A stretch of DNA of 21,608 nucleotides, from the IMG/VR virus record IMGVR_UViG_3300013127_000039, positions 1 to 21,608 of that record; one strand, given 5' to 3'. This DNA is from a virus. A model generated the notes under the pieces. That model saw nothing but the letters and a program-made list of their open reading frames with translations, made no database searches and was not told where the DNA came from. Every line of letters begins with the position of its first letter. Positions within the stretch are counted from its first letter, which is position 1. The position numbers and the translations under genes were made by a program. Shown piece after piece: positions 2,779 to 21,608 of the stretch.

Positions 2779-3264
2779 CTATACCGGCCCACCCAGGATC
2801 GTGAGGCAACGCCCACGGGCATACGTCAGCCGCGAACGAATGGCCGCGTTTGACGTGCCAAACTGGCGTGCAATGTCGTCCACGTCAGCGCCTTCCGCGT
2901 GCCGCAGCCACAGGGCAGCCCACATAGGTTCGGGCAGCGAAGCGCGCAATACTTGGAGCGCAGACCGCGCGAGTAGGCGGGCGTCAGCCTCCTCCGCAGG
3001 GCCATGCGAATACTCGTCGTCCAGCTCGGACGTGACCCGGTAGCCGAGTGCACGCAGGTGCTTGCTCACTTCGCAGCTCACCATGTAGTGCACCCAGCTA
3101 GGCTCACTGCGACCGTGCTCGGGAGCCCAGGTGCGCTCGGCAGTCAGCGCGGCAATCCGCCCCACCTGCAACAGGTCGTCCATATCGGCCCCCAGGTAGG
3201 CAGCACGTCGCCGACAACCGTTCACGATGCTGTGAATAATTCGATCCCATTTGTACGTGTCCAT
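2779..3264 (-). CDS. Sigma-70-like RNA polymerase sigma factor (phage-encoded)
   Basis: A 161-residue protein, ATG 3264 preceded by GGAG at 5-base spacing. Residues about 28-60 (DMDDLLQVGRIAALTAERTW, then a basic stretch) match the sigma region 2 pattern of core binding and -10 recognition: an acidic DDLLQ-G helix followed by an aromatic-rich helix. Residues about 110-155 (LPEPMWAALWLRHAEGADVD, then DIARQFGTSNAAIRSRL) read as a region 4 helix-turn-helix for -35 contact. The size fits ECF-type or phage late sigma factors. It probably redirects host RNA polymerase to phage promoters, as T4 gp55 does, but which promoters cannot be told from here. It sits between the primase (36-base gap) and the Cys-rich protein. 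Confidence 0.72.
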   Translation of the reverse strand: MDTYKWDRIIHSIVNGCRRRAAYLGADMDDLLQVGRIAALTAERTWAPEHGRSEPSWVHYMVSCEVSKHLRALGYRVTSELDDEYSHGPAEEADARLLARSALQVLRASLPEPMWAALWLRHAEGADVDDIARQFGTSNAAIRSRLTYARGRCLTILGGPV

Positions 3265-7012: not shown

Positions 7013-7155
7013 GACGGGCACCCCGCTTGTAAGTTGCACAGTCTGCAACTTACCGAAAAACAAGGGCAACCAAAGCGCGGTGAGCGAACCAGCTGGCGAT
7101 CTCTTGCGAGATCCGCTGAAACAGAACCGTGATTTGAGCCCGAAAATTTGTGCAT
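7009..7155 (-). CDS. Small Cys-rich protein, 48 aa
   Basis: ATG 7155 is preceded by GAGGAG at 5-base spacing, one of the strongest ribosome sites in the window, and the frame stops at TGA 7009 in a GTGA overlap with the next gene. The first 25 residues are polar. The end is FGCPCFSVSCRLCNLQAGCP with five cysteines, including C-x2-C-x5-C. This is the same spacing as in the 159-aa and 304-aa proteins of this operon, suggesting a small zinc or Fe-S protein. It is easily missed because a longer frame from 7368 runs through it. Function unknown. Confidence 0.7.
   Translation of the reverse strand: MHKFSGSNHGSVSADLARDRQLVRSPRFGCPCFSVSCRLCNLQAGCPS
7029..7053 (-). other. 10-bp perfect inverted repeat, 5-base loop
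   Basis: GTAAGTTGCA at 7029-7038 pairs with TGCAACTTAC at 7044-7053 around loop 7039-7043. It sits inside the 48-aa ORF and ends 16 bases before the GTG of the DnaJ-finger gene, so it could tune coupled translation or be a protein-binding operator. No U-tract follows, so it is not a terminator. Confidence 0.8.
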
Positions 7156-10217: not shown

Positions 10218-10232
10218 CGAGCGTTACGCTCG
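10218..10232 (-). other. Small hairpin in the leader of the 63-aa gene
   Basis: CGAGCG (10218-10223) and CGCTCG (10227-10232) pair around a 3-base loop. It lies a few bases upstream of the GGAGGG ribosome site, where it could stabilise the 5' end of an mRNA or mark a processing point. The rest of the gap 10200-10318 holds no gene. Confidence 0.45.
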
Positions 10233-10267
10233 ACTTGTTTGTTGTGTATCACGCGATCACAGGGTTT

Positions 10268-10309
10268 GACGTTGGACCCCGTGCGCTCGCCGGTCTGGGA
10301 GCGCACGGG
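10268..10309 (-). other. Intercistronic stem-loop with CCAACGTCAAA motif (copy A)
   Basis: An 11-bp perfect stem (10278-10288 with 10299-10309, 10-base loop) begins 9 bases after the stop of the 194-aa gene. On the transcript it is followed by GGTCCAACGTCAAA. There is no U-tract. The same order, stem-loop then CCAACG, occurs after two other small genes (10984-11024 and 11411-11438). Confidence 0.65.
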
Positions 10310-10318
10310 TGGGGCGTG

Positions 10319-10903
10319 CTACTTGAGCAGCGCGGTCACGGCTGCGATTTTCGCCGCCCGTTCAATGCTTGCGGCGGTCCGCTTGGTTTTGTTGCCGTCG
10401 GCCTGGTTTTGCAGCGCCGCGCCGATTGCTCGGATTGCGTCGTGAATCTGCTCGCTCGACAGTTTTTCGAGCGGCACGACCTCTTGCGTAGAAGTCCACC
10501 CGCTCGTCTCGCCCTGCCATTGGGACCAACTGCCGTTGTATTCCAATTCCAGGATCGAACCGTCCACAAGCAGGAAACGGTCGGATCCAACGTACGACCC
10601 ACGATTCTGATCTCCTCGTCGCTCGCGACCCGGACCAACCAGGTCATCTGGATCGAGATACAACCCGCGCTGCGCGTAGTGCTCGTCCTTTTCCCAGGGA
10701 TACACGCCGTTGCCCGTGCTGCCCCAGCGGTTCTCCGTTTTGATCCGGCTCGTGATCGCCTTCAGCGCGGGCCTAACAGTCTCGATCACGACCCTCAATA
10801 GCTCCACCTCGGCTGCGGGCTCAGCGGTGAGTGCTGCGGCGTACTCCTCGTGCTCAGCGGCAACCTTGGGAGCGAGCGTAGCGATCTGGGTTACGATTTC
10901 CAT
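10319..10903 (-). CDS. Unknown 194-aa protein
   Basis: ATG 10903 is chosen because GAGGAG lies 7 bases upstream; a frame extending to 11020 would cross non-coding DNA. Residues 1-60 are helical and alanine/glutamate-rich (IATLAPKVAAEHEEYAAAL). Residues 60-140 are aromatic and glycine-rich (NRWGSTGNGVYPWEKDEHYA, DRFLLVDGSILELEYNGSWS), probably a beta domain. The end is a basic helix (NKTKRTAASIERAAKIAAVT). No family recognised and no transmembrane segment. It sits in the early small-gene block and is separated from its neighbours by gaps of about 120-130 bases, unlike the tightly packed replication genes. Confidence 0.78.
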   Translation of the reverse strand: MEIVTQIATLAPKVAAEHEEYAAALTAEPAAEVELLRVVIETVRPALKAITSRIKTENRWGSTGNGVYPWEKDEHYAQRGLYLDPDDLVGPGRERRGDQNRGSYVGSDRFLLVDGSILELEYNGSWSQWQGETSGWTSTQEVVPLEKLSSEQIHDAIRAIGAALQNQADGNKTKRTAASIERAAKIAAVTALLK

Positions 10904-10983
10904 TTGTGTTCTCCTCGTCGGATTTTCACGGTGGGCTCGTCGCCTCCGTGGTTCAGCGCCGCATGGTCCCCATGACCACAAAG

Positions 10984-11024
10984 CGTTGGGCCCCTTGCGT
11001 CGATCTGTGAGCGCACGCACGGGG
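10984..11024 (-). other. Intercistronic stem-loop with CCCAACG motif (copy B)
   Basis: CCCC-T-TGCGT (10991-11000) pairs with ACGCA-C-GGGG (11015-11024) with one mismatch, starting 8 bases after the stop of the 114-aa gene. On the transcript it is followed by GGGGCCCAACG (10994-10984). It is the second copy of the element seen at 10268-10309. The rest of the 129-base gap to 10904 carries only a short CATGG/CCATG dyad near 10962-10974 and no gene. Confidence 0.6.
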
Positions 11025-11032
11025 TGGGACGG

Positions 11033-11377
11033 TCACTCGGTCACGTACAGGCCGGCATCGTCGGTTTCCGCGCGCCATGGGCCCGGGAGGAGTCGGCGCA
11101 CCTGCGCGACCACATCCGCTCCGTGCTCGTCCATCTCGTCCAAGGTCATGAGACGCATGCCAGTGCGAAGCGGGACGGTCAATTCCACTTCCTCGCGTTC
11201 CTCGCTCGCCCAGCGGGGAGAGAGATCCCAGTACTCGCAATCGGGATACTTGTCCACGTACCGGTACGCCGCGTCCGCGAGGCAATCGTCTGCATCCGGA
11301 TCAGCGAACACGATCACGGTCCGCGCGGCGGCCAGGATGTCGCGGGCCGTGGCGCTGGAGTCTGTCGCGGTGTTCAT
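11033..11377 (-). CDS. Unknown 114-aa acidic protein
   Basis: ATG 11377 follows AAAGGA at 9 bases. The protein is acidic: TVIVFADPDADDCLADAAYR near residue 20 reads as a beta strand followed by an Asp-rich helix, then YPDCEYWDLSPRW, and near the end MRLMTLDEMDEHGADVVAQV. Acidic small proteins in the early region of phages often target host proteins, such as DNA mimics or enzyme inhibitors, but nothing specific can be read here. It lies 51 bases downstream of the 87-aa gene. Confidence 0.72.
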   Translation of the reverse strand: MNTATDSSATARDILAAARTVIVFADPDADDCLADAAYRYVDKYPDCEYWDLSPRWASEEREEVELTVPLRTGMRLMTLDEMDEHGADVVAQVRRLLPGPWRAETDDAGLYVTE

Positions 11378-11410
11378 GGTCGTTTTTCCTTTCGTTGGTG
11401 CGTTATGATT

Positions 11411-11438
11411 TGACGTTGGGTTGCGCGGTTACGCACAA
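11411..11438 (-). other. Intercistronic stem-loop with CCCAACGTCAAA motif (copy C)
   Basis: On the transcript TTGTGCG and CGCGCAA (11438-11432 with 11427-11421, one G-U pair) enclose a loop of TAAC, which includes the stop codon of the 87-aa gene. CCCAACGTCAAA follows directly. It shares the stem-loop-then-CCAACG order with the two elements downstream. Confidence 0.55.
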
Positions 11439-11692
11439 TCCGGATCTTGATATCCGCCACCGACGAACGATTCCCAGCACGCCCCCAGCAGGTCGCTCGC
11501 GTCGTCCTCCGGAATACCGTCCACGTAAATCGCATTTCGCGATCCAAACGTGGCCTTCACCTCACACGGGCCATCGGCCCTGTAGTGCTCATGGAGCCAT
11601 TCGCCCGCATACTCATCGAACGATGCCGCTTCTGGAAAGTCGTCTCCGTCGTAGGGAGTGACGGTAACGTGGATGGTTCGCTTCGTGGCCAT
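11429..11692 (-). CDS. Unknown 87-aa acidic protein, first gene after the late terminator
   Basis: ATG 11692 has only a weak ribosome site (GCGAG). The protein begins with a beta-like RTIHVTVTPYDGDDFPEAAS and is acidic throughout, ending in GACWESFVGGGYQDPDCA. It is the first gene behind a promoter-like sequence and the late terminator, which is typical of an early phage gene. Family not recognised. Confidence 0.7.
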   Translation of the reverse strand: MATKRTIHVTVTPYDGDDFPEAASFDEYAGEWLHEHYRADGPCEVKATFGSRNAIYVDGIPEDDASDLLGACWESFVGGGYQDPDCA

Positions 11693-11731
11693 GTTTCGCT
11701 CGCTTTCTGTGAACCGAAGCTCACAATTCAG

Positions 11732-11760
11732 ACACTACGGGATTAAAACGCAGCCGTCAA
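11732..11760 (-). promoter_or_regulatory. Sigma-70-like promoter candidate for the early block
   Basis: On the minus strand TTGACG (11760-11755, five of six consensus bases) and TAGTGT (11737-11732, weaker, with the key T1, A2 and T6) are separated by 17 bases. The site follows the terminator directly and lies about 40 bases before ATG 11692. Predicted from consensus only. Confidence 0.5.
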
Positions 11761-11780
11761 ATAAAAAAGAGCAGCAGCCG

Positions 11781-11815
11781 AAAAAAGTAACGGGCAGGGA
11801 TGCCAGCCCTGCCCG
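11781..11815 (-). terminator. Rho-independent terminator of the late (tail and lysis) block
   Basis: A perfect 9-bp stem CGGGCAGGG/CCCTGCCCG (11791-11799 and 11807-11815) with a 7-base loop is followed on the minus strand by TTACTTTTTT (11790-11781). It begins 7 bases after the stop of the o-spanin candidate. Confidence 0.9.
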
Positions 11816-11822
11816 CCTACCC

Positions 11823-12218
11823 CTAGCGGGCAGTGCCTGCCCCGACCCCATTTGTCGGCGGCACCACCCCACAGCGAGCGCGCGTCTCTCGTATCCAGTC
11901 CTTCAGGGCAGCTTCCCGCTGCGCCAGCAGCGCAGCGTTGGGCACGTCAAAGCACGCGACCAGGCCCGACCCTGCCCCACAGTCAGATCTCGTCACCGCG
12001 GGCAACGTGATAGGTGGCGGCAGCTCGCACGCCTTCTCGACCGTCACCACCTTCGCAGGTGGGCACGACGGACAAGGTTGAGGCTTGGGGCAATCCGGCT
12101 TGGATCCCCAACTCAACAGCGTGCACCCGGACGTGAGGATGATGAACCCGACGACCATGACGGCTACGCCAAGGGCATCCACCCTCCATTTGTAAATTGC
12201 AGAACCTGCAACTTTCAA
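11823..12218 (-). CDS. Outer-membrane spanin lipoprotein (Rz1-like) candidate
   Basis: A 131-residue protein starting at TTG 12218, which overlaps the preceding stop as TTGA behind a strong AAGGAGG. Residues about 13-30 are a hydrophobic signal (ALGVAVMVVGFIILTSGC) ending in a lipobox-like TSGC, so the mature protein would start at a lipid-modified Cys. The mature part is rich in Pro and Cys (PKPQPCPSCPPAK, then ACELPPPITLP), as in Rz1 o-spanins, and is longer than lambda Rz1. Spanins fuse inner and outer membranes at the end of infection. The upstream membrane-anchored helical protein is the likely partner. The lipobox is imperfect, with T at -3 where L is usual. Confidence 0.62.
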   Translation of the reverse strand: MKVAGSAIYKWRVDALGVAVMVVGFIILTSGCTLLSWGSKPDCPKPQPCPSCPPAKVVTVEKACELPPPITLPAVTRSDCGAGSGLVACFDVPNAALLAQREAALKDWIRETRARCGVVPPTNGVGAGTAR

Positions 12219-12535: not shown

Positions 12536-12643
12536 TGCCCGATCATTACGGCAAACAGGAGATCCAGGCAACAGCAGTCCCCTGAGCAATCAGGGTCCAA
12601 CGCCCGGATCCCCTTCACACGGGGTAACAGCCCGCGTGCTTGC
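12536..12643 (-). other. Intergenic gap with small hairpins
   Basis: About 108 bases with no convincing gene. It holds CCCTGA/TCAGGG around a 4-base loop (near 12580-12595) and CCCC/GGGG around 7 bases (near 12612-12626). Neither is followed by a U-tract. GTTGGACCC, part of the element at 10268-10309, occurs here on the opposite strand relative to it (12592-12600). Confidence 0.5.
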
Positions 12644-13176: not shown

Positions 13177-15666
13177 TTACACGTTGTGATCCAACAGCAC
13201 AGCAGGACGCTGCGTGCCGGACGCGAGTACCGTATAACCACCGTCCGTGATGTTTCCGTAAAGCGTGGCATCGACGCACACCACCGCGATATCCGCACCT
13301 GGAATGGCACCGCGCACCGTGTTCCCGGCAAGGGATACGGCATCGTGCCCGGCACCCGTGATAGACAGCTGCGGTACCGCAGATTGCTGCGAGGCCGCCA
13401 AACCCAAGCACTTGTTGCCCACCACGTTGAGTGCTGTGCCTGGACCGGGCCCGCCGAATGCGCGAATTGAGTACAAGTACCCAATGCCTGACCCGCCCAA
13501 GGCGGAATCGGCATCAATGATGTTGTGCTCGATCCCACCAGCCGCATCCTCGAATTGCAACAAGCTGTACCAGTGTCCCGCGATGATCTTGTTGTTGCGC
13601 GCAATCGCGTTTTTGAAATTCGACAGCAGCAGCACGGTATTGCGAGACGCCAACGAATTATACGCGTGGCCGCTCACGTCGAAAATGCAGCTCGCGACTT
13701 CCACCGTCGCGTCGGCATTCACGACAACGGCGGGTGAATTACCCAGGCAGCCGTGGAACATATCATTGACGCCAGTGTTTGTGATACGAGTGAACAAACA
13801 CCGCTCAAGGTATTGATGCGCACCTGTGTCTTGTGGGGCAGTCGTGACCAGCATGAAACGGTTCACGGACGATCCGCTGATCGACGAGTCTGGCAATTCC
13901 CAGTCAGTCACGTGCATATCTCGACAGCTCAAGCTGCGGATATTGAACAGCACCAGCGTGCGGTTTGCCGTGGGCATCGTGTGTCGCGTGCCATTGCCGT
14001 TGATGTACAGCCCGTCGATCACACAGCGATCAGTCTTTGCCGTGCTGCCCGAAACGCGCAGCACTGGATCCGTCGTATCGTTGCCACCCGGCGCAACCGT
14101 GATCGACATACCTTTCAGGTAGTTCGCGCCACCGCTCAGGGCAACAGTGCCACTCGGATTCTGCGACCCATCAATCAGCAAAATATCGACGCCAAGGTGC
14201 AGATCCAAGAACGTCCCAGTGGCCGACGTTCGGATGAAGTGCTGATTGCCGCCCAGTAACGAGGCCGAACAGGCGTTGAACGCGACGTGCGCACGTTTTG
14301 CCGACGTTAAGGCGGTAATGGAAGTCAGCAAGATCCCTTCGGTGCGGACCCCCAGCAAGTCAAATTGGCACGTTTGGAAACACAGCGTCGGCGAACCCGA
14401 GATCAGAACCAGCTGCGGGCTGTACGCGTTGGTCGCTGCTTCAGCAACCGTACTTTGCGTAACCTGGACTTGGGAATCGCCTGTGATGGTCAACTCGCCC
14501 TGGATCACGCATCCCTCGATCAGCACACCGGAAAAGCGACAGTCGTTCACTCGCACAGCGTGTTCGGATGAAAGGAGTGCATCGCTTACAATCCGAAGGC
14601 CACGCAGCTCGGACCCGCGTGTCGAGAAGGCCGAAAAATTGAACACCCACTTGTCGTCGGCATTCAGCTGATTGTTGATAACCACGTTTTCTTCGACAGC
14701 CCACACGCGGATCGGCTTAACCAGCACCGTCTCGGCAGTGACGTGGTACGTCCCCTCTCGCAGCAGAATCGTCCCGCCGTCTGCCGCATTCAGCGCGACT
14801 AGGGCAGCCGTCAACGTGGGGTAGTCGCCTTCCGCGACAGGCCCCCCAGGCACCGCCACGGTAACGTAACGGGCAGTCTTGTCCTTCAGCTGCTCCAGAG
14901 ACTTCGGCGGCGCTTCGTACCAGCCCGTTTTGCCGATTATGTCTTTCATTTGACGGCGAACGGCCTGCACCCACAGGTGCTGATCTCCAATGCCGTAGGT
15001 GCCGCGCGCAGCATTGCGATCATTCGCCCCGCTGCCCCACTCCGTCGCGAATGCGCCCTGCGCATCCCCCTCAAAGTACAGGTGCCGATAATCCGCGTAC
15101 GCAGAGATCTTGACGGCACCGTTGATCGTCACCTCCGCGATCTTGATCCACTCGCCGTTCCCAGGCGGGGCAGGTGCAGCAGCATCCTGAAACGTGACCT
15201 CCCACCCGGCAACAAGCCTCGTGGACACACTGTCTACGAACTCAGCTGCGACAGACGGATTCCAAAACACGCGGTTCTCGAACTCCGCGTAGGTTCCCGT
15301 TGCACGGATCCACAGGGCTTGCACGCTCGACGCAGGTGCCGTGGAAAAATCCACCTCCAGCGTCGATTCGCCTTCGCCACCGAACAGCAAACCAAACTCG
15401 ATCTCGCTTGTGTCCGTCAGGTACGGCAAGAATCCCGCGCCACGGTGAAGCACCAGCGAGTCGTCCACGCCAAACGCAATCGTGCTAGGCGTGAACCCGT
15501 TCAGGATTCGAGCCTGCGTGCCCGTCGTGCCCGTCGCGCGCCCCGCTGGCAGGAAGAACGTGCGCCCGCGGCGCAGTAGATCCCGCTCGACCAGGCGACC
15601 GCCCGCTCCGTCCTCGAAATCGTCCAGGCCAACACGCTCGTTCGGCAGAATGTTCACGCGATCCAT
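13177..15666 (-). CDS. Tailspike or tail fibre with right-handed beta-helix
   Basis: An 829-residue virion protein; ATG 15666 follows AAGGAG at 10 bases. Residues 1-200 look like a beta-rich virion-attachment or structural part, with VQAVRRQMKDIIGKTGWYEA near residue 230 as a linker seen in phage tail fibres. From about residue 275 (DYPTLTAALVALNAADGGTI, then LLREGTYHV) the sequence has the start of a pectate-lyase-like parallel beta-helix, with many rungs of short strands (LRGLRIVSDALL, SGVLIEGCVIQGELTITGD, SVAQSTV-like patterns) up to the C-terminus. Such spikes bind or cut host surface polysaccharide; no catalytic pair can be named. It is the last gene of the tail module, after the 889-aa protein. 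Confidence 0.72.
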   Translation of the reverse strand: MDRVNILPNERVGLDDFEDGAGGRLVERDLLRRGRTFFLPAGRATGTTGTQARILNGFTPSTIAFGVDDSLVLHRGAGFLPYLTDTSEIEFGLLFGGEGESTLEVDFSTAPASSVQALWIRATGTYAEFENRVFWNPSVAAEFVDSVSTRLVAGWEVTFQDAAAPAPPGNGEWIKIAEVTINGAVKISAYADYRHLYFEGDAQGAFATEWGSGANDRNAARGTYGIGDQHLWVQAVRRQMKDIIGKTGWYEAPPKSLEQLKDKTARYVTVAVPGGPVAEGDYPTLTAALVALNAADGGTILLREGTYHVTAETVLVKPIRVWAVEENVVINNQLNADDKWVFNFSAFSTRGSELRGLRIVSDALLSSEHAVRVNDCRFSGVLIEGCVIQGELTITGDSQVQVTQSTVAEAATNAYSPQLVLISGSPTLCFQTCQFDLLGVRTEGILLTSITALTSAKRAHVAFNACSASLLGGNQHFIRTSATGTFLDLHLGVDILLIDGSQNPSGTVALSGGANYLKGMSITVAPGGNDTTDPVLRVSGSTAKTDRCVIDGLYINGNGTRHTMPTANRTLVLFNIRSLSCRDMHVTDWELPDSSISGSSVNRFMLVTTAPQDTGAHQYLERCLFTRITNTGVNDMFHGCLGNSPAVVVNADATVEVASCIFDVSGHAYNSLASRNTVLLLSNFKNAIARNNKIIAGHWYSLLQFEDAAGGIEHNIIDADSALGGSGIGYLYSIRAFGGPGPGTALNVVGNKCLGLAASQQSAVPQLSITGAGHDAVSLAGNTVRGAIPGADIAVVCVDATLYGNITDGGYTVLASGTQRPAVLLDHNV

Positions 15667-15681
15667 TGTTCAGTTTCTCCT

Positions 15682-18351
15682 TCAGAATTTCCGTTTGTAC
15701 GCTGGCAGGACACCGGCAATCGTAATGCTATTCACTAGCTCCCGCGTAGCGCGATCAACGTCGAATACGTAAAACGGGTAGTACTCGTCAGGCGGACCCG
15801 CCGCTGCCCCATCATTCTGCACAAATTCGTCGCGCAAGATCTGAGCACTTGGGATCGTCGTGTACTGCACGTCCACGTTGCCCGATGCGATAGGAAACGG
15901 ATCCCGTGGCGTGACCGTCGTACCGGACACAGTACCTGCATCCACCAATTCCCAGTCCACGCCGGACTGGATCGGGAAGGCCCCGCTCGTCACCCCATCG
16001 TACGGGTGAAATTGCCAATCGACAGACTGCTCGTTGACAAAGACAGCACCCGAGACGCGCACCCGTCTCGGATTCACGAAGGCCAAGATCGTGCGCGTGC
16101 CGTTGTTGCCCAGCACGCTGCCCGACAACACAATCTGCTTGCCCACGTCACCGACCCGGAAGGACACGTCCAGCGTGTCCACGTAGTGCAGCCCAGCTAC
16201 CGTTTCCAGCGTCGCCGCATCAGCCTGCACAATCCCGGCCAAAGACAAGATCGTCCCGCTCACGTACGTCACGCCCCACTCACCCTGCGCGCGCGTGTCC
16301 CCGCTCCGAATCCGGATCCGACGGCCAGTGTCCCCCGACAGGAACAATCCCGCCACGCTCGACATTTGCGGGCCTCCACCGGCAAACGCTCCGTCAGCTC
16401 GGCGCAGATTGAAATGGTTGCGCTCCGAAGACACCTGCACGCGGACCCGATCCCAGTACACCGTCCAGTCCTGCGCGGGTGACGACCCCGAGTACCCGAA
16501 GCTGATCGTGGACCCGCCAGACGCCACGAACCCGGCCACGTTGGCACGGGCCTCCTCTTTGCCGTCTCGGTACAGCACCACCTCGTGCATCCCGTTCGGA
16601 CGTGTCTCCCTCAGCACTTCGATGCGAGTCCAGCGACCGATCACCAAGGGCCCGTTGCTCCAGGTGCCCGTGATCGCGCCAGGGTCTGCCAGCGTCCCGC
16701 CCAGCTGCCAGCCCGTGTCGTTCCAGAACGCTCCGTATTTGCGCCCCACCACCGAATCGTCCACCTCCACCGACCAGGCGTAGCCCGTGGCCGCGCCAAT
16801 CGCGACAGGCTTCCACCAACACCCAAAGGACACGCGCGAGCCCGGCACCCAGTCCTGCCGGTCCAGGGCACGCGAATACCGGCCACCGTTGGCCGTCGGC
16901 GACGCTGCATCAGGCGTGCACTCCAAAGCGGTCTGCCCAGGCCCTGTAGCGACGATAGCGAAGCTACCTACCTCGGCACCACCCGCCACGGAAACGTACG
17001 TCCAGACGGGTGCCGCTGCGCTTGGCAGCACTCCCATTTCTAGGGTTTGCTGGTACGGCTCGACCAGCAGGTCCACAACCTTCGTCGGCGTGTGCGCCAA
17101 GGCCGTCAGGGCCGACACCCCCGTGATCACCTTGCGCTCGCGATGCCCGCGTCCCTGCGCGGTTCCGCCCAGGGCAGGATCCACCGACGGCGTAACGTCG
17201 GCTCCCGTCGGGACCATCCAGGTTTTACCCTCGCTGATATTCGTGGTCCCCGTTACGGACTCTAGGAGCACAAACACCTGATTCGGAAACGACTCCAAGT
17301 CCTCGTAAATCTCCCAACCCCCACCGGGATACAAACACTCCAGCAACAGCTCCAGGCCGTACACCGTCCCCCGCGGCAAGTACGGCAGCACCTGCAACAA
17401 GCACCTGTAAATCTCGTCGCCCAACGCGGGCAATCGCTGGATCCCATACCGGCGTCCGATCCGGTCCAGCTCGTCCCCCTCGGCGTACGCTGTGAGCATC
17501 GCTCGGCGTAACTTGTCGAGCGCACTGTACGACTGCGAAGCGTCTACCACTTCCGACAGCGCCGGAATGGGGGCGCGCACCTTCGGACGACGGGGCACGC
17601 GCCCACTCAGGTGCCCTCGATCCGTGTCGTACTGCTTGATCGCAATCCGCCCGTCAGTCGATTCCGTGGCAGCAAACGCAGATCCACTCACCGTGCAGCT
17701 CTTGCCGTTGCCTGCCACCGTCAGGATCAAGCGCGGGCCTTCGTTGCCGTTCAGTGTCGCGCGCGGGTACACCCACAGCGCGCGTCCAACGTCAGCCGCG
17801 GAAAAGATCGCACCGTCTGCGCTGATCGTGTTCCCTGCCGCGAGGATCGTGACGAACAGCATGCGCTGCGGACCCAACCCGCGGAACTCTTGCAGCGAAG
17901 GTGTCAGCACCGTCTGCGCGTACGGAATCGCCACGGGTTCTTCGCCGATCCACAACGCCTGCGCGCGATCATTGCGCGGGAATCCCAGCGTGCTCTCCAC
18001 GCGTAACGTTGTGAAACGCCAGCGCACCGGGTTTTGTGCTGAAAAGGCAGCTGCGGTTCCGTCGATCTTGTGCAGCGTAACCAACGTCGGATTGACGTAG
18101 GACGCGATCACGTAACTGCCCTCGTTCCCTGTGAAAGCACCCGCAACAGGTTGGATGATATCCAGCCCCATGCCCACCATTCCCGCGTCGAACACGGCCA
18201 CCAGGCTCGTAAGGCTGGACCCACTGACCTCAGCGTCGTTCTGCCCGAAGATGTGCGCACGTTCGCGCGTGCGCGTAATGAGTGTGCCTCCGATCTCGTT
18301 GTCGGATTCAGCAATCGCATCTAGCGTGGCTTGTAACTCGTTGACTGGCAT
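15682..18351 (-). CDS. Multidomain tail/baseplate protein (gpI-like segment, LamG-like domain)
   Basis: An 889-residue protein whose ATG 18351 overlaps the previous stop as TAATG. Residues about 1-250 hold two copies of a small beta module (GNEGSYVIASYVNPTLVTL; ADVGRALWVYP). Residues about 275-350 (LDKLRRAMLTAYAEGDELDR, GRRYGIQR, DEIYRCLL, PRGTVYGLELLLECLYP) match the pattern of P2 gpI-type baseplate proteins. Residues about 490-640 look like a LamG or concanavalin-like sugar-binding domain (SRALDRQDWVPGSRVSFGCW, then LYRDGKEEA). Residues 668-785 hold two more beta modules (GDTGRRIRIRSG; GDVGKQIVLSGSVLGNNGTR). Together this suggests a tail-tip or baseplate component that also binds the cell surface. 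Confidence 0.65.
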   Translation of the reverse strand: MPVNELQATLDAIAESDNEIGGTLITRTRERAHIFGQNDAEVSGSSLTSLVAVFDAGMVGMGLDIIQPVAGAFTGNEGSYVIASYVNPTLVTLHKIDGTAAAFSAQNPVRWRFTTLRVESTLGFPRNDRAQALWIGEEPVAIPYAQTVLTPSLQEFRGLGPQRMLFVTILAAGNTISADGAIFSAADVGRALWVYPRATLNGNEGPRLILTVAGNGKSCTVSGSAFAATESTDGRIAIKQYDTDRGHLSGRVPRRPKVRAPIPALSEVVDASQSYSALDKLRRAMLTAYAEGDELDRIGRRYGIQRLPALGDEIYRCLLQVLPYLPRGTVYGLELLLECLYPGGGWEIYEDLESFPNQVFVLLESVTGTTNISEGKTWMVPTGADVTPSVDPALGGTAQGRGHRERKVITGVSALTALAHTPTKVVDLLVEPYQQTLEMGVLPSAAAPVWTYVSVAGGAEVGSFAIVATGPGQTALECTPDAASPTANGGRYSRALDRQDWVPGSRVSFGCWWKPVAIGAATGYAWSVEVDDSVVGRKYGAFWNDTGWQLGGTLADPGAITGTWSNGPLVIGRWTRIEVLRETRPNGMHEVVLYRDGKEEARANVAGFVASGGSTISFGYSGSSPAQDWTVYWDRVRVQVSSERNHFNLRRADGAFAGGGPQMSSVAGLFLSGDTGRRIRIRSGDTRAQGEWGVTYVSGTILSLAGIVQADAATLETVAGLHYVDTLDVSFRVGDVGKQIVLSGSVLGNNGTRTILAFVNPRRVRVSGAVFVNEQSVDWQFHPYDGVTSGAFPIQSGVDWELVDAGTVSGTTVTPRDPFPIASGNVDVQYTTIPSAQILRDEFVQNDGAAAGPPDEYYPFYVFDVDRATRELVNSITIAGVLPAYKRKF

Positions 18352-18926
18352 TACGACACCAATGGGGGCTCGGCGTCCAAGCGACGAGGGCCCGTCTCTG
18401 CTTGTGGAGGAAAGCTACTGCGCATGACGTGCACTTTTCCGTACCACGCACGTTCTACAAACGTACCCGCCTGCACGATCAATTCCACGGACGGGGGCAC
18501 TACCACTCGAATCGCAAAGTCCCCGACAAAGGGAACAGGGGGCAGCACGACGGGCAGCGATACCCCGTCTGCCGAACGGGGTGCATACCCATATCCAGAT
18601 CCACCGTACGCAGGGTACAAGTAGGGGCCACCCACGGGCCCGATTGACACGGCCACGGGTACCCCTATCGGAAACGTCCCCGTCAAGCGAAGGATATCCC
18701 CGCCGTGGTTGCCGAAGATCTTTCGCTGGCTCAGCGGGATGAACGAGACGGGAGGCGAACAGTTTCCCAGCTCCAGCAGTTCTGCCGCATGCGCGCCCGC
18801 GGAAGCGTCGTTGCCGTACGCGTCCGTGATCCCGGCAAGATATTCCGCGGCAACAGCGCCCGATGGAGCGTCGTTGCCGTACGCTTCCGTGGTCCCGCCA
18901 AGATATTCCCCGTCGAAATCAGCCAT
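18351..18926 (-). CDS. Virion-associated protein with repeated EYL-GT modules
   Basis: A 191-residue protein, ATG 18926 with GGAG 5 bases upstream. The first 45 residues are two 21-residue copies (EYLGGTTEAYGNDAPSGAVA and EYLAGITDAYGNDASAGAHA) and start with MADFDGEYL, shared with the 50-aa gene just before it. After LELGNC the sequence becomes beta-rich, with GGSGYGYAPRSADGVSLPVV and PPVPFVGDFAIRVVVPPSVE. Position in the tail module suggests a structural or tail assembly role; no family recognised. Confidence 0.72.
   Translation of the reverse strand: MADFDGEYLGGTTEAYGNDAPSGAVAAEYLAGITDAYGNDASAGAHAAELLELGNCSPPVSFIPLSQRKIFGNHGGDILRLTGTFPIGVPVAVSIGPVGGPYLYPAYGGSGYGYAPRSADGVSLPVVLPPVPFVGDFAIRVVVPPSVELIVQAGTFVERAWYGKVHVMRSSFPPQAETGPRRLDAEPPLVS
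18805..18909 (-). repeat. 63-bp duplication coding the 21-residue module
   Basis: GCGTCGTTGCCGTACGC occurs at 18805 and again at 18868, 63 bases apart, and the similarity extends through AAGATATTCC. The two copies encode EYLAGITDAYGNDAS and EYLGGTTEAYGNDAP. Confidence 0.88.
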
Positions 18927-19071
18927 CGGACTCCAACCCAGAAATCACCGGGTAATCAGGATCGATAGGCGGACACGGATCGCGGTACTCGGCATCGCCC
19001 GCACCGGACGTGTCATCCTCCAACAACTCGGCAGTGGTACCCGCCAGATATTCCCCGTCGAAATCAGCCAT
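18901..19071 (-). repeat. Duplicated gene-start segment
   Basis: The last 25 bases before and including each ATG-side coding start (18902-18926 and 19047-19071) are identical and encode MADFDGEY. Copies lie 145 bp apart, so they are in different frames relative to each other, meaning two genes and not one frame. Confidence 0.9.
18919..19071 (-). CDS. Small protein, 50 aa, sharing its N-terminus with the next gene
   Basis: ATG 19071 starts 3 bases after the previous stop (TAACCTATG); TGA ends at 18919, 8 bases inside the following gene. It begins MADFDGEYLAGTTAELLEDD and continues with an acidic, Pro-rich tail (EYRDPCPPIDPDYPVIS). No ribosome site is obvious, so it may be translated by reinitiation. 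The first 13 residues match those of the 191-aa protein at 12 positions. It may be a partial duplicate of the downstream gene or an independent peptide; the tight spacing supports translation. Confidence 0.62.
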   Translation of the reverse strand: MADFDGEYLAGTTAELLEDDTSGAGDAEYRDPCPPIDPDYPVISGLESDG

Positions 19072-19074
19072 AGG

Positions 19075-20262
19075 TTACGCAGTCTGCATGACCGTGGTGT
19101 TCCAGGGGTGGACGAAGCTGCCCAGGTGCACAAAGTTTCGCGTACCGGCCAACGGGTACGAGTCACCTTCCGCAGGGCCGCCTAGTTCCGCACTGACGCC
19201 GTGGAACAAGTCAGTGGCAATCCCCGCACGCCCGTAGTACCCCGCCGTAACATTGACGTAGCCCAGCGGCAAAATCGGCGACAACCCGTTCAACAAAGAG
19301 ATCGAATTCAACTGACAGAGTGACTGTGTGCTCTGCCCCCACGGGTTCTCTGACGAGAATTGCAGCAAGGTGCGCTCAACCTGTGTCGCGTTGCCGTTTT
19401 GTGCCATGAACGACGAGGCAGTCCTGCTAGCAAGCCATCGGTCAAAGCGCAGAATACGGGTGGTGTCTGCATCGTGGGAAGTGCCCCTGTGAAACGCGAC
19501 GATAGGTTGGTCCAGGCCGTTCCAGATGCGGTCAGGCGCACCAGGAATCACAACAGGGCTCTGCGGTTCTTCGATGTTGAGAAACATACAGGCACGCCCG
19601 CTGCGGAACGCGACGATACGCCAGACTTTGCCGTCAGACGACGCCATGACGTGCAATCTGTGAGCGACGGCCCCACCAGCCGTGCCTCCCCAGACCGTAG
19701 GACCGTAGGAGTCAACCCCCACAGTATCGCCAGCGTTGAACTGCGCGTGATTGTTCACGCTGCTCGTCAGTGGGGGTACCGTCAGCGAGCCATTGGTGCC
19801 TCCGTTTGAAGTGCCGTACCCAGTGAACGACATATTGAAGCCCGACTGCTCACCGAAATTGGCAGCGTCTCCGACAAAATGCGACCCAGACGAACCGTTA
19901 CTCCCGAACCGGAGCCTGATATGGAGGCCCAGCGCCGAATTGAACAGGTGGGACCATGTGCCTCCCGTGAAAACACCGTAAACGACATCGGCAAAAGTAT
20001 TAATACGCTTAACGTCGTCGTTGTTTCCGAACGCCACCGTATTGCCCTCGGATTTTGGCACCCACAGCGCAGCAGGTGCCGCCGCTGCCGCGTTCGCGGA
20101 ATCCGTCCACGCCAGAGGCCCCGAATTGTCAGGCAGCCGTCCGCACAGGGCGTTGTACATAGCCCACCACAGGTAGCGATTCGTTTCGTTGGTATCGATG
20201 CCAGCGGGCACCGAAAGGTTTGCGGCGAATCGCCAAGTTTTGACCAGCGTGGGTAGTGGCAT
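19075..20262 (-). CDS. Predicted virion (tail) protein, 395 aa
   Basis: ATG 20262 after AAGGGAGAA at about 11 bases. The first third has a helix-rich part (NRYLWWAMYNALCGRLPDNS, then LAWTDSANAAAAAPAALWVP), and the rest is beta-rich with many Gly/Ser/Asn turns (SFTGYGTSNGGTNGSLTVPP), consistent with a virion surface or tail-tip protein. It lies between the baseplate J-like gene (17-base gap) and the small repeat genes, which places it in the tail module. I do not recognise the family. Confidence 0.72.
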   Translation of the reverse strand: MPLPTLVKTWRFAANLSVPAGIDTNETNRYLWWAMYNALCGRLPDNSGPLAWTDSANAAAAAPAALWVPKSEGNTVAFGNNDDVKRINTFADVVYGVFTGGTWSHLFNSALGLHIRLRFGSNGSSGSHFVGDAANFGEQSGFNMSFTGYGTSNGGTNGSLTVPPLTSSVNNHAQFNAGDTVGVDSYGPTVWGGTAGGAVAHRLHVMASSDGKVWRIVAFRSGRACMFLNIEEPQSPVVIPGAPDRIWNGLDQPIVAFHRGTSHDADTTRILRFDRWLASRTASSFMAQNGNATQVERTLLQFSSENPWGQSTQSLCQLNSISLLNGLSPILPLGYVNVTAGYYGRAGIATDLFHGVSAELGGPAEGDSYPLAGTRNFVHLGSFVHPWNTTVMQTA

Positions 20263-20279
20263 TTTGTTCGGTTCTCCCT

Positions 20280-21608
20280 TTACGAAACTGTGATGTTCGA
20301 CGCGATCAACCGCGCCAATTGATTGTCTTGCACGATACGATTTTCTACAGGCAGGAAAAACGAAACGTCGTACATGCCAGGAATGGCCATCGCACGTTCT
20401 TTCATTTCGTTGAGAATCACATCGTCACTGATCCCCAACCCGTTGACGTACTCGCTGATCGCAGACTTCACGTCCGCGGCGACAGCGGCTTGGTTGAATC
20501 CCGCCAGCACCGTGATGTTCGCACGAACAACGATCTGCACAATCGCGGGTGTCAACACGCGCACTCGAACACCAGCACCACGGTACCCAGGGAAGTTGGA
20601 TCGGTCCCCTGGATCGCCGTCGATCACCTTTTGCGTGAGTGCAATCAACCCCGTGAAGTACGTGTACGACGCGTCGATCAAATCCCCTGCGGTCAACCCC
20701 GTGGGGAACGTACCCGGCAACAAGTTGATCTGACCGCTGGCAGGGTTCAGCGTGTAGTCCACACCGAACACCAGGGCAACCGTGTTCCGTCGGAGCGTGA
20801 ACGTATTCTCGATCTTGATCGGCTTGTCGGGCAGGTTCAGCTTAGTCTCGCCGCCCAAGGCGACGGCAAGCACCACCTCCTCGACCTTGACCGCCGTGGT
20901 CTCTGCCGTTCCAGATCCGTCGTCGATGTAGATCGTGACGCGACCCAGGTTGATCGGATCTTCCACCACGTTCGCGAACAGCACACGCTTGCCGGTATTA
21001 GTGTCCTCCACCGACAACGCAGCAGGTTCTAACCCTGCCGCGTGACAACGTGCCAGCCCCGCAACTTGATCGACGATGCGCTTCAGGAACGCGTCATCTT
21101 GTTCGCGATCTCGCCCGTTTGTGAACGCAGCAGGGTTAGTCACTCCAGTCACGCCAGACGGTTTGGAAACAAAGCCCTTGATCACGCCCACAGCTGCATT
21201 GCCGCTCGCGCCTGCGTCTGCCGCTTCCACCGTCACCGCGTTCGATACCGTGTTCCCGCCCAGAATCGTCCCCAACGTGGTCGTGGTGAAGACAACTTCA
21301 GGCTGTGCACCGTCCGCAGGGATTGTCACCTGCGTCCCTATGGCTATCGTGACAGATCCGATGGTCCCCGTGCGCGAAAACGTGACAGTCCCCGTGGCTT
21401 TGCGCGCGTCCAACCGCTTGACCAGGCTCGGGTTGTATTCCTTCGCGCGCTCGTCCAGATCGTTGCCGCGGCACTTGAACAGATCGAACAGGTCCAGCAG
21501 GTTGATCATCTGCACGTACGTGTCGTCGTCCTCACGTGCAGCTGCGGCCAGCACCTGCTTCAGGTCCGACAGGTTGTTCAGATCGTTGAGCGAAGATCGG
21601 GCAACGAC
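20280..21608 (-). CDS. Baseplate J/gp6-like protein (5' end outside window)
   Basis: The frame is open through base 21608 with no stop, so the start lies outside; about 442 codons are visible. The order matches the baseplate J-like (P2 gpJ/T4 gp6) family: an N-terminal DLFDLFKCRGNDLDERAKEY segment, then VTFSRTGTIGSVTIAIGTQV, which fits the family's G-x-x-I-P-x-G-T entry, then NAVTVEAADAGASGNAAVG, NGRDREQDDAFLKRIVD (the E-D-x-x-L-x-x-R signature), and a C-terminal domain with VKSAISEYVNGLGISDDVIL. It forms the wedge of the baseplate. An inserted beta segment (FTLRRNTVALVFGVDYTLNP) suggests an embedded extra domain. Confidence 0.8.
   Translation of the reverse strand, partial: VVARSSLNDLNNLSDLKQVLAAAAREDDDTYVQMINLLDLFDLFKCRGNDLDERAKEYNPSLVKRLDARKATGTVTFSRTGTIGSVTIAIGTQVTIPADGAQPEVVFTTTTLGTILGGNTVSNAVTVEAADAGASGNAAVGVIKGFVSKPSGVTGVTNPAAFTNGRDREQDDAFLKRIVDQVAGLARCHAAGLEPAALSVEDTNTGKRVLFANVVEDPINLGRVTIYIDDGSGTAETTAVKVEEVVLAVALGGETKLNLPDKPIKIENTFTLRRNTVALVFGVDYTLNPASGQINLLPGTFPTGLTAGDLIDASYTYFTGLIALTQKVIDGDPGDRSNFPGYRGAGVRVRVLTPAIVQIVVRANITVLAGFNQAAVAADVKSAISEYVNGLGISDDVILNEMKERAMAIPGMYDVSFFLPVENRIVQDNQLARLIASNITVS

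Follow-up and report, generated by a model that had tools for sequence, protein, structure and literature searches.

A stop-associated hairpin repeat between the small early genes of an uncultured tailed phage, with a proposed role in RNA

The window analysed here is IMGVR_UViG_3300013127_000039, a 21.6-kb fragment from an uncultured tailed phage. All genes of its early region are on the minus strand. Along this strand, baseplate, tail and probable lysis genes are followed by a U-tract terminator and a set of small early genes, and these in turn by genes for an SF2 helicase, a DnaB helicase, a primase, an ECF-like sigma factor and a single-strand binding protein. The terminator, which separates the structural/lysis genes from the early genes, is a canonical intrinsic one (11789..11817, minus strand; an 11-pair stem followed by ACTTTTTTCG). 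Just ahead of it lies a possible spanin pair (12589-11823), consisting of a 124-aa membrane protein and an overlapping lipoprotein-like protein (LTSGC). A probable early promoter region with a -35-like TTTGACG falls within 11707..11761 (minus strand), ahead of an 87-aa gene, and the same stretch holds a 5'-UTR hairpin with a UUCG loop. We infer that the small genes are early because of where they lie and because a terminator and a promoter-like region precede them.

Between 11692 and 10199, gaps of 51, 129 and 119 nt set the small genes apart. The three genes upstream of these gaps encode proteins of 87 aa (11429..11692), 114 aa (11033..11377) and 194 aa counted from its ATG (10319..10903), all on the minus strand, and no family was found for any of them. 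The last gap also contains a second small hairpin, CGAGCG-TAA-CGCTCG (10218..10232, minus strand), just ahead of the Shine-Dalgarno sequence of a 63-aa gene.

A few features elsewhere in the window were recorded. The ECF-like sigma factor is phage-encoded and lies in the replication operon (2779-3264; Pfam Sigma70_r2 and r4_2). The C-terminal part of the single-strand binding protein (1-195), at the assembly end, is built of a 39-nt tandem repeat with PPQGPPAYAPA-type units. A small ORF of about 48 aa (7153-7009) with a good Shine-Dalgarno sequence (GAGGAGCGAACATG) overlaps, in another frame, the putative TTG start of a 171-aa gene. A perfect, operator-like palindrome, GTAAGTTGC-N7-GCAACTTAC, is repeated at 7029-7053 of the window and at 14677-14701 of an overlapping contig (G002/L147; 10-bp arms in G002), with a degenerate copy at 12192-12216 of the window. 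These sites lie in or beside gene borders of the same phage, and the palindrome was absent from all examined loci of other phages.

A preliminary description of this DNA had reported a stem-loop followed by CCAACG behind three consecutive early genes. We confirmed this arrangement at the stops at 11429, 11033 and 10319 (minus strand), where a hairpin is followed, 1-2 nt further on, by CCAACG, so that the order noted earlier is kept in all three gaps. Copy A (11409..11438, minus strand) has the hairpin TTGTGCG-TAAC-CGCGCAA (11438-11421), a stem of 7 pairs with the TAA stop (11431-11429) in its loop, and then CCCAACGTCAAA (motif 11419-11409), its tail being C followed by CCAACGTCAAA. Copy B (10984..11031, minus strand) has the hairpin CCCCGTGCGT...ACGCAAGGGG (11024-10991), whose stem CCCC.TGCGT...ACGCA.GGGG makes 9 pairs with one mismatch, and then CCCAACG (10989-10984), the tail being C followed by CCAACGCTTTG. 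Copy C (10265..10316, minus strand) has the hairpin CCCGTGCGCTC-N10-GAGCGCACGGG (10309-10278), with 11 pairs the strongest perfect stem anywhere in the window, followed by GT and CCAACGTCAAA (10275-10265). The three copies have a common orientation, the hairpin starts at most about 11 nt from the stop codon in each, and the spacers differ in length (4, 10 and ~14 nt).

Other details of the earlier account were borne out to different degrees. The exact tail in two copies was indeed found, CCAACGTCAAA being identical in A and C. The consensus (G/C)CCAACG fits A and B, which have C before CCAACG, and fails for C, which reads GTCCAACG. The statement that the stem sequences differ holds for A alone, because the B and C stems have a common sequence, CGTGCGCTC.CAGA.CG...CGCA.GGGG.

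The relation between B and C is the firmest part of the family. Their affine local alignment extends over about 48 nt with a score of 45, which was reached in none of 3000 shuffles (null maximum 40) and matched by only 7 of 14,706 pairs of window fragments. The two are therefore homologous, being descended from a single ~48-nt repeat. They differ by a 5-nt and a 4-nt indel; in B the indels weaken the hairpin, and B is without the TCAAA tail and the A/C-rich stretch. Copy A is joined to B/C via its tail, its position and its GTGCG/CGC core; overall similarity does not join it. A covariance model of the copies was set aside, as its alignment misplaced the 3' arm of copy A.

We considered whether three gaps of a GC-rich phage might each hold a hairpin with a common hexamer behind it by accident. 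CCAACG is commoner in the window than in the relatives and mildly over-represented there (28 bare occurrences against 18.7 expected), some stem precedes about 10-12% of CCAACG sites elsewhere in the window and in the relatives, and A versus C is non-significant without stem anchoring (119 of 500 shuffles). The number of hairpins in the window (9, against 4-12) is also not in excess. However, the longest flank common to stems of different gaps, directly behind the stems, is 11 nt, and a flank of at least that length appeared in 2-3 of 5000 shuffles, although the shuffle figures carry no correction for the freedom with which the motif was picked post hoc. With the B/C homology in addition, chance is disfavoured for B/C, and as an account of the three gaps together we regard it as improbable.

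Common descent of B and C could also mean that the copies were left by duplication or cassette exchange where the early region changes fast, with a boundary sequence of ~48 nt copied behind two genes. Such copies would have no present signalling role, or would serve just as short homology for recombination, a role that has been argued for the PeSLs of T4-like phages. The indels between B and C and the weaker hairpin of B are in keeping with this account, as are neighbouring genes without recognisable relatives, which is the situation in gene-exchange zones. It does not readily explain why the tail of copy A is letter-perfect beside a different stem, or why all copies are similarly placed past stops in the same orientation. 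We therefore hold duplication alone to be somewhat unlikely.

The repeat appears to be peculiar to this phage. No further copy was found in the window. A candidate fourth copy at 12597, an inverted CCAACG beside a hairpin, was rejected as shuffled versions of the region fold just as well (z -0.16), and a second CCAACG in the gap of copy A (11398-11393) is without a hairpin. The overlapping contig L004/G002 comes from the same phage (100% identity over window positions 14882-21608) and adds about 15 kb of upstream genes; CCAACGTCAAA, allowing at most one mismatch, is absent from its 22 kb. Relatives were found via a profile of the baseplate protein and their genes were called with a crude script. 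Several have retained a succession of tail genes, small genes set apart by gaps, and genes for SF2 helicase, DnaB and primase, and none of the early gaps of these syntenic relatives contains CCAACGTCAAA. Of the other relatives searched, one only has the sequence in exact form (G017); this occurrence lies inside an HNH-endonuclease-like gene and was not accepted as an intercistronic copy. The closest relatives have baseplate identities of 65% and 53%; their contigs stop near the baseplate gene and gave no helicase match.

Broader searches gave a similar picture. An IMG/VR scan for a C-type hairpin followed by CCAACGTCAAA, with a spacer of 8-28 nt that excludes copy A, returned 14 stretches, none resembling an intercistronic copy. 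The Rfam 15 covariance models gave no match in the window at gathering score, and BLAST of copy C against cultured phages gave one weak match only (E 0.5), in an integrase gene. Single-query searches with the 194-aa protein, the SF2 helicase (viral contigs) and DnaB returned nothing or just a fragment of the same phage, and the baseplate protein had no match in cultured phages. The sole bacterial-genome match, a Gammaproteobacteria MAG contig, is weak evidence as a host hint. That the repeat is phage-specific, as proposed in the preliminary description, is thus supported, as is its confinement to the early gaps, though the window has almost no other intergenic gaps that could hold the repeat. 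The processing, attenuation or regulatory role proposed there is a candidate one.

Among known systems, the repeat would work most like other phage-specific intergenic repeats. Start-associated sequences (SAS, GGGATAGGAGCCC; ESAS in the extended form) of cluster K mycobacteriophages number 11-19 per genome, lie 3-7 nt ahead of start codons and include the Shine-Dalgarno core, and about half of them have an inverted repeat with a variable spacer just upstream (PMC3203893). Like SAS/ESAS, the window repeat is short, asymmetric, phage-specific and in one orientation between non-structural genes (PMC3203893); unlike them, it sits behind stops and is 31-81 nt ahead of the next start, with a tail that has no Shine-Dalgarno sequence and leaves 31 nt (A) or 65 nt (C) to the start. 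Three copies are seen across the window and the 22 kb of the overlapping contig. The stoperators that cluster A mycobacteriophages carry are likewise short asymmetric sites in short intergenic spaces with an orientation tied to transcription, but occur as more than twenty copies of a 13-mer read by a known repressor, without a hairpin (PMC9283540). The window has two exact, full 11-mers, its promoter region has just 7 nt in common with them, and no repressor gene was recognised in it. T4-like phages have PeSLs (promoter early stem loops, named in PMC4503421). These combine a stem-loop with an early promoter, and they resemble the window repeat in that a conserved block comes after the stem-loop, in the gaps between early genes where the region is variable. 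Behind the window stems no consistent promoter follows: no sigma-70-like promoter, the types covered by the search, was found on the minus strand at the three sites. As at least one defining feature is lacking in each comparison, we filed the repeat in none of these classes.

A promoter role was itself dropped, since neither the search nor reading by eye gave a consistent -10/-35. A link to the ECF-like sigma factor was rejected as well, no GGAAC/CGTC pair at proper spacing being seen by eye.

The likeness to stoperators and to SAS/ESAS inverted repeats raises the reading that the copies are DNA sites for a phage protein, the hairpin being the inverted repeat of the protein site. It fits an asymmetric 11-mer kept in one orientation in short intergenic spaces, and the reverse complement TTTGACG is also present at the probable early promoter. 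On the other hand, TTTGACG occurs 7 times against 3.3 expected, and as often in 8 of 100 shuffles, so that its over-representation is not clear. The full copies are just two, the spacers of 4, 10 and ~14 nt and the different stems of A and C are unlike a protein site, and neither a repressor nor an integrase was seen in the window, which is a genome fragment. We judge this reading unlikely, also with an operator-like repeated family in the early gaps of a relative in its favour.

That family belongs to the syntenic relative G018 (IMGVR_UViG_3300032397_000006) and is independent of the window's own. Its unit is an inverted repeat, GTTATCGC-N5-GCGATAAC, followed by TAGATCGAAGGGAAGGTGT, a tail that contains the Shine-Dalgarno sequence. 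Seven good copies (contig positions 94710, 94183, 93865, 93567, 64596, 64212 and 63722, minus strand) and some degenerate ones lie in gaps ahead of small genes; positions in locus L109 are 6344, 6700 and 10591. The called start is 11-13 nt downstream in five of the seven; for the other two the next start given by the crude caller is further off, yet a start codon is close by. G018 reaches a repeat degree of 6, where its null sequences never exceed 2, and this family is far better supported than the window's own repeat. A pattern search of IMG/VR found it in no other contig. Between copies the right arm of the unit stays almost the same, and changes in the left arm are not compensated. Such a pattern favours a protein site, an argument made for ESAS in PMC3203893. 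The G018 family is closely SAS/ESAS-like, and the window's family is not. The two might together suggest a lineage that keeps evolving sequence-unrelated intercistronic hairpin-plus-tail families among its early genes (a stop-associated one in the window phage, a start-associated one in G018), each read by a phage-specific factor co-regulating early genes; we consider this quite doubtful.

The position of the window repeat bears on its function. The ~48-nt B/C repeat starts 4-5 nt past the stop codons of two unrelated genes, which indicates that its position is kept relative to the stop and not to the next start. This steady stop distance, set against the variable start distance, is the placing of a 3'-end element and not of a start-associated one. 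The lack of a U-tract behind A, B and C, which the preliminary description had stated correctly, is meaningful given the canonical U-tract terminator just upstream, at 11817-11789; ordinary intrinsic termination is unlikely.

Attenuation by pause-type or Rho-dependent stops between the early genes, setting an expression gradient, would suit hairpins placed directly past stop codons. It would also suit the RNA past A and C, which is open, A-rich and holds more C than G (within the top 2.5% and 3.3% of stretches of the window). However, besides the missing U-tract, copy B is not C-rich and no second motif of a known kind was found, and we think attenuation hardly likely.

Our preferred reading, to which we give a probability of roughly 0.38, is that of a phage-specific, stop-associated intercistronic hairpin acting on RNA, either to protect 3' ends or to uncouple genes. 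In the transcript, the stem-loop would form directly behind the stop codon and CCAACGUCAAA would stay single-stranded; the tail is unpaired in centroid folds of the gaps of A and C. Cleavage might occur in the open A- and C-rich stretch, after which the upstream message would have its 3' end shielded by the hairpin. The hairpin might also allow genes with 51-129 nt between them, each with its own ribosome-binding site, to be expressed separately, and a phage or host RNA-binding protein could recognise CCAACGUCAAA. Consistent with an RNA hairpin, the order and spacing of hairpin and tail are the same in three consecutive gaps, and folding is better than in shuffles for both A and C (z -2.8 each). 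Around the same GTGCG/CGCRC core, both partners of the two outer pairs are changed from A to C (TT/AA versus CC/GG), which favours RNA pairing, three sequences being insufficient as proof.

Against the RNA reading, just three copies are seen, two of them one family by descent, and B folds less well (z -1.3). The RNase III processing sites of T7 are longer irregular hairpins between early genes. The window resembles T7 in that several early intercistronic gaps in a row each hold a hairpin; with 7-12 pairs, its stems fall short of the usual length of RNase III sites. A rule that the early gaps of relatives hold strong hairpins was rejected, no enrichment being found in the syntenic relatives (p = 0.83).

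Taken at the level of the sequence, the repeat is real and peculiar to the phage studied; it is small, its kind is already known in other phages, and a role in RNA is proposed for it. Phage-specific early-gene repeats such as SAS, stoperators and PeSLs are points at which many small genes are coordinated or shuffled, and several such families have no known mechanism. The case in the window, together with the much stronger start-associated family of G018, shows that such families are also present in uncultured phages far from the cultured ones.
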